Source of the DNA: Rhizobium albus
GTDB taxonomy: Bacteria; Pseudomonadota; Alphaproteobacteria; Rhizobiales; Rhizobiaceae
Length of the DNA: 64,000 nt
Reading direction: 5' to 3'
Assembly: GCA_030160035.1 (NCBI GenBank)
Contig: BSNO01000001.1
Span: 744,001 to 808,000 of the forward strand
The position numbers and the translations under genes are program-made. Below the pieces are notes generated by a model. It was not told the DNA's origin and did no database searches. It saw only the letters and a list, made by a program, of their open reading frames with translations. This document shows, piece after piece, positions 49,367 through 55,717 of this stretch (positions within the stretch are counted from its first letter, which is position 1; each line of letters starts with the position of its first letter).

Positions 49367-49831
49367 CTAAAGCCCGAGGTCGCTCAATTCCGCATGGTCA
49401 GTGGGCCGTTTACCCATGGGCCAGTGAAATTTTCGATCTTCCCAAGTGATTGCGAGATCGTTGATCGACGCGATGCGGCGCTGCATCAAGCCTTCGGGCG
49501 AGAACTCCCAGTTCTCGTTGCCGTAGGAGCGGAACCAGTTTCCGCTGTCGTCATGCCATTCATAGGCGAAGCGCACGGAGATGCGATTGTCATGATGCGC
49601 CCAGACCTCCTTGATGAGGCGATAGTCGAGCTCGCGCGCCCATTTGCGCTCAAGAAAAGCTTGGACGGCATCACGGCCTTGCAGAAACTCGGCGCGGTTT
49701 CGCCAGATCGTGTCGGGCGTATAGGCCAAAACGACCTTGCCTGGGTCGCGGGTATTCCAGGCATCTTCCGCCATGCGCGCTTTCTGGGCGGCAGTCTCTG
49801 CTGTAAAAGGAGGCAAGGGCGGTCGCGACAT
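49367..49831 (-). CDS. DUF1348 (NTF2-like) protein
   Basis: 154 residues of the DUF1348 family, NTF2-like fold. Typical stretches are [44 protein letters not shown] and [20 protein letters not shown]. The family has no assigned role. It is the last gene of the cyanate operon, 76 bases after cynS. Confidence 0.85.
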
Positions 49832-49907: not shown

Positions 49908-50351
49908 TCACCAAGCGTTGTAGGCCAGGTATTTGCCCCGCATCTTGAGCTCGACCCGATCACCCTTCGGGCTTGGAATCCGGTCGATCTCCATGTCGAA
50001 ATCGATGGCACTCATGATGCCGTTCCCGAACTTCTCGTTGATCAATTCCTTGATCGTGTCGCCATAGACGGCAACAATCTCGTAAAGGCGGTAGACGCAA
50101 GGATCGGTCGGGACGGCTTGCGAAAAGATCTTCGTCGGGAATTCGGCAAGGACCAGCGCCGCTTCCTGCGGAAGGCCGAGGTTGCGTACCAGCAGATCGG
50201 CCTTGTCGCGCGGGAAAGCATTCATGCCGAGGCAGGCGGAGGTGGTGAACACTTCCGACATGCCGATATCCGCCGCGATCTTCTCCCAGGTGAGACCTGC
50301 GGTGCGCTTCTTTTCGATGATCATTTCCGTAACGTCGATTTTCTTCATCAT
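49908..50351 (-). CDS. cynS: cyanase (cyanate hydratase)
   Basis: 147 residues. Cyanase converts cyanate and bicarbonate to ammonia and carbon dioxide. The catalytic triad region PCVYRLYEIV (Arg and Glu) and the Ser in MSAIDFDM are intact, and the N-terminal helical domain reads TWEKIAADIGMSEVFTTSACLG. ATG 50351 is chosen; an upstream in-frame ATG (50390) would overlap the ATPase gene region. It follows the importer genes by 44 bases. Confidence 0.96.
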   Translation of the reverse strand: MMKKIDVTEMIIEKKRTAGLTWEKIAADIGMSEVFTTSACLGMNAFPRDKADLLVRNLGLPQEAALVLAEFPTKIFSQAVPTDPCVYRLYEIVAVYGDTIKELINEKFGNGIMSAIDFDMEIDRIPSPKGDRVELKMRGKYLAYNAW

Positions 50352-50395: not shown

Positions 50396-51313
50396 TCAGC
50401 CGGCGAGCGAGACGAGATGGGGACGGACCCGTTCGGCGTCCGGGGTCGGTTTTTCGTCGTCCGCGCCGGGGCGCACGGTCAGCGGCTGGCGCCGTCCACC
50501 GCTCTGCTCACGCGGGCTTGCCGCGATTTCGCCGGAGCGCCGGGACAGGAAATCGACGAGGTGGTTGCGGATCTTGTAGTAGGCCGGGTGGTGGATCATC
50601 TCGGCACGCTTGCGCGGCCGTGGAATATCGATGACGACGCTTTCGGCAACTTCGGCAAAGGGCCCGTTGCTCATCAGCAAAATGCGGTCGGCGAGAAGGA
50701 TTGCCTCGTCCACGTCATGGGTGATCATGAAGACGGTCTGGCCGCTGTCCTGCCAGATCTTCAGAAGCTCGTCCTGAATGGTGCCGCGCGTCAGCGCATC
50801 GAGCGCCCCAAACGGCTCATCGAGCAGCAAGAGCTTCGGCTGTGTCGCAAAGGCGCGGGCGATGGAAACACGCTGGCGCATACCGCCCGAAAGCTGCGAC
50901 GGCTTGCGATGCTCGGCACCGTTGGTCAGGCCGACCATGCGCAGATATGCGTAGCTGTGCTCCTCGACCTTCTCCTTGGACCAGGTGGGAAAGCGCGCCT
51001 TGACGCCGAACATCACGTTCTTCAGCGCCGTCAGCCAGGGCAGCAGCGAATAATTCTGGAAGACGACGCCGCGATCGAGGCTCGGGCCCGATACCTCCTT
51101 TCCATCCATTGTCACCACGCCTTCGGTGGGCTCGTCGAGCCCGGCGAGAACGTTCATGATGGTGGACTTGCCGCAACCGGAATGGCCGATGATGCAGACG
51201 AACTCGCCCTTTTGAATATCGAAGTTGACGTTTTCGAACACCGTGAGCTGCTCGCCCTTGCTGCCCGGAAACCGCTTGGCCAGCCCGTCGATCTCGAGGA
51301 ATGGTTGTGTCAT
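50396..51313 (-). CDS. nitrate/cyanate-type ABC transporter ATPase
   Basis: 305 residues, NrtD/SsuB/CynD type. Walker A GHSGCGKST (~42-50), signature LSGGMRQRVSIARAFA, Walker B LLLLDEPFGALD. The position between the permease gene and cynS makes cyanate the probable substrate. A short C-terminal extension after ~255 is polar. Confidence 0.87.
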   Translation of the reverse strand: MTQPFLEIDGLAKRFPGSKGEQLTVFENVNFDIQKGEFVCIIGHSGCGKSTIMNVLAGLDEPTEGVVTMDGKEVSGPSLDRGVVFQNYSLLPWLTALKNVMFGVKARFPTWSKEKVEEHSYAYLRMVGLTNGAEHRKPSQLSGGMRQRVSIARAFATQPKLLLLDEPFGALDALTRGTIQDELLKIWQDSGQTVFMITHDVDEAILLADRILLMSNGPFAEVAESVVIDIPRPRKRAEMIHHPAYYKIRNHLVDFLSRRSGEIAASPREQSGGRRQPLTVRPGADDEKPTPDAERVRPHLVSLAG

Positions 51314-51322
51314 GACGCTCTC

Positions 51323-52159
51323 CTATTCGGTGTAGGTGACGGCGCGCTGCAGGCGGCCGAATGCGGCATCGAGCGCCATGCCGACGACGCCGATCATCAG
51401 GATCGAAAAAATCACGCTGGTGAGATCGAGATTGTTCCACTCGTTCCAGACGTAGTAGCCAATGCCCGTGCCACCGACGAGCATTTCGGCGGCTACGATC
51501 ACAAGCCAGGCGATGCCGATCGAGATGCGCATGCCGGTCACGATGGTCGGTGCGGCAGCCGGCAAGATCACCTGAAAAGCCGTCTTCACCGGCCCGAGTT
51601 CGTGAGTACGGGCGACATTCACCCAGTCCTTGCGGACCGAAGCGACGCCAAAGGCCGTGTTGAGCAGCATCGGCCAGATCGAACAGATGAAGATCACGAA
51701 GATCGACGATGCCTCGCTGTCCTGGATGATGAAGAGCGCAAGCGGCATCCAGGCGAGCGGCGAGATCGGCCGCAGCACCTGAATGAAGGGATCGAGAGCC
51801 CGGAACATCAGTGGCGACATGCCGATGAGGAAGCCAACCGGCAACGCGATCAGCGCCGCAAGCGCATAACCGGAAAGCACCCGCATCAGTGAATAGGCGA
51901 TCTGGATGCCGATGCCCTTGTCGTTGGCACCGGTGTTGTGGAACGGATCGGAAAGCTCCTCCCACGCCTTCTGCATCACGGCAGAAGGCGCAGGCACGCC
52001 GGCATTCTGGCTGCCGCCGCCCATCAGCCGCTCATATTCGGTCATCTCGCCGGCGCCGGGCAGGATTTGCGTGTTCGTCGACAATTCCCAGGCGCCGAGC
52101 GCGACTACCAGGATGACGATCGTGAGTGCGAGTGCCCTGAAGTCGTAGGAGCGCGTCAT
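51323..52159 (-). CDS. nitrate/cyanate-type ABC transporter permease
   Basis: 278 residues with six hydrophobic segments, first at ~8-28, and the EAA-type loop ELGPVKTAFQVILPAAAPTIVTG. The start at 52159 (MTRSYDFRALAL) avoids an arginine-rich N-terminal extension and lies one base from the stop of the upstream binding-protein gene. Confidence 0.87.
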   Translation of the reverse strand: MTRSYDFRALALTIVILVVALGAWELSTNTQILPGAGEMTEYERLMGGGSQNAGVPAPSAVMQKAWEELSDPFHNTGANDKGIGIQIAYSLMRVLSGYALAALIALPVGFLIGMSPLMFRALDPFIQVLRPISPLAWMPLALFIIQDSEASSIFVIFICSIWPMLLNTAFGVASVRKDWVNVARTHELGPVKTAFQVILPAAAPTIVTGMRISIGIAWLVIVAAEMLVGGTGIGYYVWNEWNNLDLTSVIFSILMIGVVGMALDAAFGRLQRAVTYTE

Positions 52160-52160
52160 C

Positions 52161-53564
52161 TCACGTCCTCCGGATCGCGAAGCTCTCGACATAGGCTTCG
52201 GGCTCGGCCGGATCGAAGGTCTTGCCCATGATCATATGCGACTTGTAGGTTTCGTTCGGCACTTCGAGCCCCAGATCGGCCATGACCTTCCCGCAATCGG
52301 CAGCGAGATAGACTTGCTCGGCCACCGCGGCGTAGTCGATATCGCCCTCGATGTAGCCCCAGCGCTTCATCTGGGTCAGGATCCAGACGCCCATGGAGTG
52401 CCAGGGGAACGGGTCGAAGTCGATCCGGTTCGGTTCGTCGCGCACATTGCCGAGACCGTCGGCGAAGCGGCCGGTCAGCACCTGCTCGATGACCGGCACC
52501 GGCTGATTGAGATAGTTGGTCGGCGCGATGGCCGCGGCGATCTCGGATCGGTTGGCGCTGTCGCTGGCATATTGGGTGGCGTCGACGATCGCCTTCAGGA
52601 GGTTGCCGTAGGTGTTCGGGTAGGTTTCGGCAAATGCCTGCGAGCAGGCGAAGGCGCAGCAGGGATGGCCTTCCCAGATGTCCTTGGTGAGAATGTGGAT
52701 GAAGCCGATCTCTTCCCAGACTGCGCGCTGGTTGAACGGATCTGGCGACAGGAAGCCGTCGATGTTGCCGGCGCGCAGGTTCGCGACCATTTCCGGCGGC
52801 GGCACGACGCGGATATGAATGTCGCGATCCGGATCGAGACCTGCCTCGGCCACGTAGTAGCGCAGCAGGAAGTTGTGCATCGAATATTCGAACGGCACCC
52901 CGAAAGTGAGGCCGCGCCAGGTCGACACGTCCTCGTGCTTGTCGCGGTGGTCGTTGTGCAGGACGATCGCCTGGCCGTTGATGTTCTCCACGGCAGGCAT
53001 CAGGAACGGCGTTGCCGTGGAGCCGGCGCCAAGCGTGATCGCGAGCGGCATCGGCGTCAGCATGTGCGAGGCGTCGTATTCTCCGTTCAGCGACTTGTCG
53101 CGGGCGACGGCCCAGCCGGCGGTCTTCACGACTTCGACGTTCAGGCCGTAGCGCTGATAGAAGCCGAGCGGCTCCGCCATGATGATCGGCGTGGCGCAGG
53201 TGATCGGAACGAAGCCGACGGAGAGGTCGGTTTTTTCCGGCGTGCCGATTTCGTCGAGGATCGCAGCCTTCACCTTGTCGATGGGCAGGACCGACGCGAG
53301 TGCTGCAGCGAGCGTCGTACCGCCAAGCATCTTCGCGAATGAGCGGCGCGACAGCTCGTTGTGCCCGAACACGGAGCGCACGACCGCACTCTCCACAGCC
53401 CGCTCCAGAATGTCTTCAGACGACATCGGCGCACGCTGGTCTCTTGCCGAGATCGCCTGCATGCGATGGCCCGCATCGTCCACGCAATCGCTGCAGGTAC
53501 AGGCCAGGCCATGGCGAAGATCGGTATCGCCGTCATATGGATTGCCCAAGGACTTGATCGTCAT
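52161..53564 (-). CDS. Tat-exported NrtA/CynA-type ABC substrate-binding protein
   Basis: 467 residues. An 80-residue N-terminal region contains C22-T-C24-S-D-C27 and then a twin-arginine motif SRRSFAK (Arg73-Arg74) with a hydrophobic stretch to about residue 100, so export is Tat-type. The core follows NrtA/CmpA: VGFVPITCATPIIMAEPLGFY and NIDGFLSPDPFNQRAVWEE. Start ATG 53564 has AAGGGG eight bases upstream. It is the first gene of the operon. Cyanate is the likely ligand by context; nitrate or nitrite is possible. Confidence 0.85.
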   Translation of the reverse strand: MTIKSLGNPYDGDTDLRHGLACTCSDCVDDAGHRMQAISARDQRAPMSSEDILERAVESAVVRSVFGHNELSRRSFAKMLGGTTLAAALASVLPIDKVKAAILDEIGTPEKTDLSVGFVPITCATPIIMAEPLGFYQRYGLNVEVVKTAGWAVARDKSLNGEYDASHMLTPMPLAITLGAGSTATPFLMPAVENINGQAIVLHNDHRDKHEDVSTWRGLTFGVPFEYSMHNFLLRYYVAEAGLDPDRDIHIRVVPPPEMVANLRAGNIDGFLSPDPFNQRAVWEEIGFIHILTKDIWEGHPCCAFACSQAFAETYPNTYGNLLKAIVDATQYASDSANRSEIAAAIAPTNYLNQPVPVIEQVLTGRFADGLGNVRDEPNRIDFDPFPWHSMGVWILTQMKRWGYIEGDIDYAAVAEQVYLAADCGKVMADLGLEVPNETYKSHMIMGKTFDPAEPEAYVESFAIRRT

Positions 53565-53633
53565 TTGCTGAACCCCTTTTTTTGACGGCGCAACCGGTTG
53601 CCACAGCTGCGCCAGCCTCCACGTCCAGGGTGA

Positions 53634-53649
53634 AGCAATGGCCGTGCCA
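53634..53649 (-). promoter_or_regulatory. sigma-54 promoter (-24/-12) of the cyanate operon
   Basis: On the minus strand TGGCAC, five bases, TTGCT: consensus at every position. The -24 element is at 53649-53644 and the -12 at 53638-53634. Transcription would begin near 53622, about 58 bases before the binding-protein start. Confidence 0.85.
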
Positions 53650-53713: not shown

Positions 53714-53770
53714 AAATTACGAACATTCGTAATTTACAGTTTTTCGTAACGGCGTTATGAGATTTCGTAA
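53714..53770. promoter_or_regulatory. TTCGTAA repeat array, candidate activator binding region
   Basis: A perfect 10-bp inverted repeat (AAATTACGAA, two-base centre, and its complement) at 53714-53735 is followed by further TTCGTAA copies at 53743-53749 and 53764-53770. The array is 65-120 bases upstream of the -24 element, right for a bacterial enhancer-binding protein. Its last copy is beside the activator gene start, so autoregulation is likely. Confidence 0.75.
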
Positions 53771-53782
53771 AAGGGGCGCGTA

Positions 53783-55717
53783 GTGGCGAAGGATTTTCGG
53801 CTGGGAGAATTTGCCTCAACAAACGAAGCTCACAGCACGGTGCTGTTCGCCGAGGCGTTTCATGCCGATGTCGAGGCGTTGCTGCTGGTTCGCCCCGCGG
53901 CCAATAGCATCGTGCAAGCGAATGCAGCAGCAGCCAGTCTCTTCGAACATTCCATCGACGTTTTGCGTGAGACGCCGGTCACGGCACTGTACGACCATGC
54001 GATCGGGGCACTGCATGTCCTGACGGAAGAGGCACTCGAACGCGGGCATGCCTACAGCCGCGACATTTCCATTCCGCGAGCGAAGGCCGAGCCTCTGGAG
54101 GTGGAGCACAGTGCTCTGGCGCTCCAGACCGCCGGCGAATTTCATATTCTCATCCGCATCAGCGATCTGGACGCGAGACGGCGTCGCTCCATTGACGAGG
54201 AGGCCAACAACTACCATCGCCAGGGGCTGGAGGAATGGCGCCGCGCCGAACGCTTCTTCCGCGAGATCGAGCGGGAAAATCAGCTCATTCTGGCGGCGGC
54301 GGGAGAAGGCATCTACGGCGTCAATGCCGATGGCGTGACGACGTTCGTCAATCCGGCCGCCGAAGCGATGCTCGGCTACAGCGCGGCTGAACTCGTCGGT
54401 CACGACATGCACAGCATGGTGCACTACAAGCATCCGGACGGCAGCCATTACCATTCGTCCGACTGCCCGATCTACAAGGCGTTTCGCCAGGGCACGATCA
54501 ATACGGTGGACGACGAGGTCTTCTGGCACAAGGATGGTCATCCCGTACGCGTGGAATACACCTCGACGCCGATCAGCGACAACGGCGCGCATGTGGGCGC
54601 GGTGATCGTCTTTCGCGATATATCCGAGCGCAAGCGCAACGAAGAGAAGCTGCGGTCGGCTCTGGAAGAAAATGCCCGCCTGCGCGAGCGGCTCGAAATG
54701 GAAAATGCCTATCTGCAGGAGGAGATCCTGACGCAGGCGAACCATTACGACATCATCGGCAACACCGGTCCCATCCACAAGATCCTGCAGCAGATCGATC
54801 TGGTCGCGCCGACCGACGCCAACGTCCTCATCACCGGCGAAAGCGGAACGGGAAAAGAGCTCGTGGCGCGTGCGATTCATCAGGCTTCGAAGCGCCGGGA
54901 CCGGCCGTTGATCCGCGTCAATTGCGCAGCCATCCCGCGCGAACTTTTCGAAAGCGAATTCTTCGGACACGTGAAAGGCGCCTTCACCGGCGCGGTCCGT
55001 GACCGCATCGGCCGATTCGAGTTGGCAGACGGTGGAACAATCTTTCTTGATGAGGTGGGAGAAATCCCACTCGATCTTCAATCGAAGCTCCTGCGGGTGC
55101 TGCAGGATCGTCGTTTCGAGCGGATCGGCGAAGAAAAGACACGCGAGGTGGACATCCGGCTGATCGCCGCGACCAACCGCGATCTCAAGTCGGAAGCTGC
55201 CAAAGGCCGATTCCGCGAAGATCTCTATTTCCGCCTGAACGTCTTCCCCATCGAATGCCTGCCTCTGCGCGCGCGGCGGGAGGACATTCCGCTGCTTGCC
55301 CAGCATTTCCTCAAGATCGCATGCGCGCGCCTGAACATCGACGAGCCGCTGATGACACGCGCGAACATTGCCGAACTCAAGAGCTATTCCTGGCCGGGGA
55401 ATGCCCGCGAATTGCAGAACATCATCGAGCGCGCCGCCATTCTCGCGCGCAACGGACGGATGGAATTCCACCTTCAGGGGCAGGCCGAAAGGCCCGTCGA
55501 GGAGCGCCGCCCGCCCGAGGTGATCAATGATGCCCTAGCGCCAATCCTCACCGCCCGCGACATGCAAGATTTCGAGGTGGCGAATGTTCGAAGGGCACTC
55601 GCAAGCGCGAATGGTCGTGTGTCCGGCAAGGATGGCGCTGCAGCTCTACTCGGAATGAAACCGACCACGCTTTACTCCAGGCTGAAAGCGCTCGGGATCG
55701 ACAGGAATGGTCAGTAG
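53783..55717 (+). CDS. sigma-54-dependent activator, PAS-PAS-AAA+-Fis
   Basis: 644 residues. N-terminal PAS-like domain (~25-140), second PAS (~165-290, with [16 protein letters not shown]), coiled-coil linker, AAA+ domain (~320-555: GESGTGKE at ~351, GAFTGA at ~399, FLDEVGEIP) and a Fis-type helix-turn-helix at the end ([30 protein letters not shown]). The intact GAFTGA shows it contacts sigma-54. It is divergent from the cyanate operon. GTG start with AAGGGG upstream. Confidence 0.92.

Follow-up and report, generated by a model that had tools for sequence, protein, structure and literature searches.

How the cyanase operon of Rhizobium albus is controlled, and whether this control ties cyanate use to nitrogen status, are the questions raised by the 64,000-nucleotide stretch of DNA studied here (the window). 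The E. coli operon under the LysR-type regulator CynR and the cyanate genes under NtcA likewise place cyanase and import under regulation; in both cases, the regulator belongs to another family and sigma-54 is not involved. In the window, a putative operon for import and cyanase lies divergent from a gene for an enhancer-binding protein, here called CynF, and a sigma-54 consensus sequence lies between them.

The definition of a sigma-54 promoter required GG at -24 and GC at -12 at a constant distance, as in TGGCAC-N5-TTGCW. The element TGGCACGGCCATTGCT at 53649-53634 on the minus strand conforms to this consensus with no mismatches (GGCCA separates TGGCAC from TTGCT), and no other exact match occurs in the window. 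Three sites with one mismatch were found, against 2.0 expected from shuffled sequences. As about two such sites per 64 kb arise by chance, the motif count is not decisive; the exact sequence, the position, and the conservation decide. The ATG of cynA (53564) is 70 bp from the end of the element and 85 bp from its start. With GC at -13/-12 and its C at 53635, the predicted +1 falls at about 53623, and the predicted cynA leader has 59 nt to the ATG at 53564. The preliminary description had reported a sigma-54 consensus without mismatch on the minus strand 70-85 bp before the operon, a start at 53622, and a facing gene for an enhancer-binding protein with an intact GAFTGA. The direct sequence match bears out the first claim, the start is within 1 bp of the recomputed position, and Pfam and a motif check confirmed the nature of the facing gene.

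The Pfam and NCBIfam matches gave five genes, all on the minus strand, in the order cynA-cynB-cynD-cynS-DUF1348. The first three encode an NrtA-type substrate-binding protein (cynA, 52161-53564; NMT1_2/NrtA-type, PF13379, E = 5.8e-89), a permease (cynB, 51323-52159; PF00528 and TIGR01183, both above the cut-off), and an ATPase (cynD, 50396-51313; PF00005 and TIGR01184, both above the cut-off). The cyanase gene cynS (49908-50351; TIGR00673 equivalog, 144.7 bits against a cut-off of 113.3) is the only one in the genome. The last gene of the putative operon encodes a DUF1348 protein (49367-49831; NTF2/SnoaL-like, PF07080, E = 1.7e-65). With a divergent cynF beside cynABDS, the locus is of the CynF type. 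A DUF1348 gene adjoins the cyn genes in 11 of the 80 relatives described below. As a separate observation, this NTF2-like gene recurs in the cyn operons of unrelated genera (in the window and at L019, L030, and L091), either 3' of cynS or between cynA and cynB, and its product may act in cyanate metabolism.

The facing gene, cynF (53783-55717, plus strand), encodes a protein in which PAS, coiled coil, PAS, coiled coil, AAA+, and Fis-type HTH follow one another, as assigned from Pfam, the motif check, an AlphaFold2 model, and a fold search of the PDB. Walker A (GESGTGK) is at residues 352-358 and the intact GAFTGA at residues 399-404; together with the AAA+ and the Fis-type HTH, all the features that define a sigma-54 enhancer-binding protein were found. 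The HTH_8 match (20.8) is just below the Pfam cut-off of 22, and the HTH helices are present in the AlphaFold2 model. In this model (pLDDT 83), an N-terminal fold is followed by a long helix, the PAS domain known to Pfam, another helix, the AAA+, and the HTH. From the order of helices and strands, we read a further PAS-like fold, missed by Pfam, at about residues 30-128. The AAA+ part matched the structures of FleQ, NtrX, and DmpR. CynF is neither a NorR equivalog (360.9 bits against the NCBIfam cut-off of 476, with PAS instead of GAF) nor an NtrC (TIGR01818, 311 bits against a cut-off of 558.6, the match beginning at model position 128), and it has PAS domains and no receiver domain. All 81 CynF sequences share cysteine 228 of the second PAS domain, within the motif DCPIY. 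Since cyanate carbamoylates thiols, this cysteine is a possible sensing residue; the motif may also be general to this type of PAS domain.

A search of 84,980 genomes yielded 80 related loci (53-78% identity), and a dereplicated set of 24 representatives had regulators with less than 70% identity. In 78 of the 80 relatives, cynF is divergent and adjoins cynA or cynS; in some Methylobacterium and others, it is divergent directly from cynS. The best sigma-54 score facing the operon averaged 9.8/11 over 79 gaps. Among the 24 representatives, the mean of the best -24/-12 score was 9.88/11 towards the operon, compared with 7.49 (sd 0.13) in shuffled sequences and 8.1 towards cynF, and 23 of them scored at least 9. 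L010 is a deviant relative without a good promoter. Comparison within the genus shows the promoter, the dyads described below, and the region of the start codon still in alignment, whereas the intervening spacer has diverged. Judged by these alignments and scores, the -24/-12 site is conserved, facing the operon, far beyond chance. The genome of the window has one copy of rpoN, and each of the 25 further cynF genomes examined also carries the gene.

Between cynF and the promoter, we found three tandem dyads of the form ACGA-N4-TCGT (consensus TTACGAAATTTCGTAA), read here on the minus strand as candidate CynF sites. The distal dyad O1, TTACGAAATCTCATAA, is at 53755-53770 (20.1 bits with the position weight matrix), the middle dyad O2, TTACGAAAAACTGTAA, a weaker and imperfect copy in conserved register, is at 53734-53749 (12.2 bits), and the proximal dyad O3, TTACGAATGTTCGTAA, is at 53717-53732 (19.3 bits). 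Their centers, at about -139, -118, and -101 from the predicted +1, are in the usual location of enhancers. Exactly three dyads were present in 70 of the 79 gaps, usually with 21-23 bp between O1 and O2 and a conserved 17 bp between O2 and O3, whereas shuffled gaps had a mean of 0.07; L008, L110, and L112 have no recognizable dyads. The dyad profile was trained on the same intergenic set; a shuffle test with a fixed pattern answers this circularity in part, and in it the triplet was found in 18 of the 24 representatives and in none of the shuffled sets. The three dyads are the probable enhancer of CynF. No published description of a CynF operator was found in the literature searched, and the three-dyad enhancer appears to be undescribed there. 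Lone dyads being too short for a genome search, a wider CynF regulon was sought with the double-dyad pattern; with up to two mismatches, this pattern matched only the cyn locus in the whole genome. The distances from the dyads to the promoter cluster near 60-62, 70-75, and 81-87, with a weak period fit, and we claim no helical phasing.

We consider it very likely that, in this cynF-type cyanate assimilation locus, the sigma-54 polymerase and CynF on the three dyads express cynABDS and the DUF1348 gene. RNA polymerase with sigma-54 would wait in the closed state at 53649-53634, and the divergently encoded CynF (PAS-PAS-AAA+-Fis) would bind the three tandem dyads at 53717-53770. With cyanate as the presumed signal in this organism, CynF would assemble a hexameric ring; the DNA would loop, and ATP hydrolysis by CynF would open the promoter through the GAFTGA loop, leading to expression of the five genes. 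A related system is NorR-norVW, as NorR is the best NCBIfam match of CynF, though below the cut-off. NorR depends on three enhancer sites that serve as the scaffold for an oligomer in the form of a ring (PMC2941729); by analogy, three CynF dimers forming a hexamer would be the natural reading of the three dyads. NorR differs in its GAF domain, through which it senses nitric oxide, in place of the two PAS domains of CynF, and the operators of the two regulators differ in sequence. The start of cynF (53783) follows 13 bp after the end of the distal dyad, so that CynF bound there may repress its own gene; autoregulation of cynF is possible.

The preliminary description knew of no sigma-54 cyanate operon. 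This view is overturned by the published cynFABDS genes of Pseudomonas pseudoalcaligenes (oleovorans) CECT5344 (PMC6627978) and by a survey of cyanate lyase genes (PMC12316311), and we rejected an unknown kind of control on the same grounds. Like the window, the CECT5344 locus has a divergent Fis-family sigma-54 regulator CynF, an NrtA-type importer, cyanase, and a putative sigma-54 promoter before cynA; a mutant showed that CynF is essential, and cynABDS under CynF are induced by cyanate and repressed by ammonium (PMC6627978). The authors remarked that clusters of this kind are found in alpha-, beta-, and gammaproteobacteria, and they only inferred an Ntr link for the ammonium repression (PMC6627978). 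The window differs in its alphaproteobacterial host and in the DUF1348 gene at the end of the operon, and the Pseudomonas relatives L073, L074, L076, and L080 share its dyad triplet. In the survey, from 2025, the cyanate lyase genes of alpha- and gammaproteobacteria showed an enrichment of sigma-54 sites (PMC12316311). The rpoN mutants of Bradyrhizobium DOA9 have reduced cynS levels (PMC13207237), and an NrtA-type gene of this strain bears TGGCATGCTCCTTGC at -36. An identical 15-mer is present before cynA in many Bradyrhizobium loci of our set; we infer that the DOA9 gene is cynA. On the evidence of the sequence, the element in the window is a real promoter and well conserved, and its cyanate locus belongs to a known class.

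It is possible, though rather unlikely, that the promoter and the dyads are real and that the inducer is not cyanate but another cyano compound or nitrogen limitation. The PAS domains of CynF may bind a ligand other than cyanate, and the same dyad layout is found with the sister regulator NitA at the nit1C clusters (cyanide/nitrile assimilation), which are linked in Pseudomonas to cyanide/nitrile use. On Acinetobacter plasmids (L092 5775-6040, L093 5709-5960), NitA-nit1C resembles the window in that a homologue of CynF is encoded divergently and a sigma-54-like site is accompanied by three dyads, with spacings of 22 and 18 bp; it differs in its structural genes and in its dyads, which drift to TATGAAATTTCATA. 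However, the orthologous P. pseudoalcaligenes operon is induced by cyanate (PMC6627978), and one nit1C protein query, run without a positive control, gave no match in the genome of the window.

A less probable alternative, to which we give little weight, is that the global regulator NtrC also or mainly activates the operon from the same sigma-54 promoter, with CynF secondary. The genome encodes a true NtrC, and ammonium represses the Pseudomonas operon; however, CynF alone is essential in Pseudomonas (PMC6627978), and the conserved upstream elements track CynF and NitA across the classes of Pseudomonadota. We prefer activation by CynF. The tie between cyanate use and nitrogen status, as proposed in the preliminary description, finds no support in the window: CynF has PAS domains without a receiver, no good sigma-54 site faces cynF in the window (the best scored 7/11), and sigma-54 alone, which serves many activators, does not report nitrogen status. 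Nitrogen control of cynF via its own sigma-54 promoter was rejected for want of such a site in the window. The window differs in this respect from several gammaproteobacterial cyn loci (L055, L063, L073-L081), which have a near-consensus sigma-54-like site towards cynF, scoring up to 11/11 in L081. This observation suggests that sigma-54 controls cynF itself in those loci, where the site might supply nitrogen control.

The relation between the activator and the promoter can be followed in 108 gaps. Of the 102 CynFs whose loop is intact (GAFTGA or its mild variants GAFSGA and GSFTGA), 100 have the -24/-12 site. In five loci with broken loops (L090, L094, L111, L115, and L136; GAFGGA, GAFPGA, GAFQGA, GAYPGA, or loop lost), the -24/-12 site is absent, the distal dyad is gone, and the dyad pair spaced 17 bp is kept. 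L058 is an exception, having the loop GAFTSA and yet a perfect promoter. Phylogeny does not enter the Fisher test that relates loop to promoter. In the tree, L090, L094, L115, and L136 form one supported clade (Rhodobacterales, Rhizobiaceae), and L111 stands apart with a weakly supported placement; the loss of GAFTGA and promoter probably occurred twice independently. The genomes G024 and G287, which carry two of the broken-loop CynFs, still encode rpoN; thus, the promoter change is not simply due to loss of the sigma factor. The joint loss of loop and promoter couples the promoter to its activator in evolution and thereby supports the site in the window as functional. That the -24/-12 match is a chance one and the operon uses a sigma-70 promoter is highly improbable: a single match close to the consensus is not unusual for 64 kb, but the site is conserved in 23 of 24 representatives, leaves a footprint in the genus, and is lost together with GAFTGA. 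This conservation and co-loss, along with the mutant data in relatives, give good support to a functional sigma-54 promoter that the facing activator drives.

We lean towards the view that CynF changed its sigma factor at least twice, that the broken-loop forms activate (or repress) a sigma-70-type promoter, and that the locus in the window represents the ancestral state of sigma-54 control and has, in common with NitA, an enhancer of three dyads that is so far undescribed. Such a switch in the relatives appears to be undescribed in the literature searched. A precedent is NtrC of Rhodobacter capsulatus and Caulobacter, which lost GAFTGA and moved to sigma-70 (PMC10274813); in comparison with this precedent, the matching promoter change is visible here in the same gap. 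With loop, promoter, and distal dyad lost together, these loci amount to a natural experiment on the departure of an enhancer-binding protein from sigma-54. Our findings assign a cyanate operon that is widespread in alphaproteobacteria to a control class already established, and the three ACGA-N4-TCGT dyads offer a concrete candidate operator for predicting the regulons of CynF and NitA.
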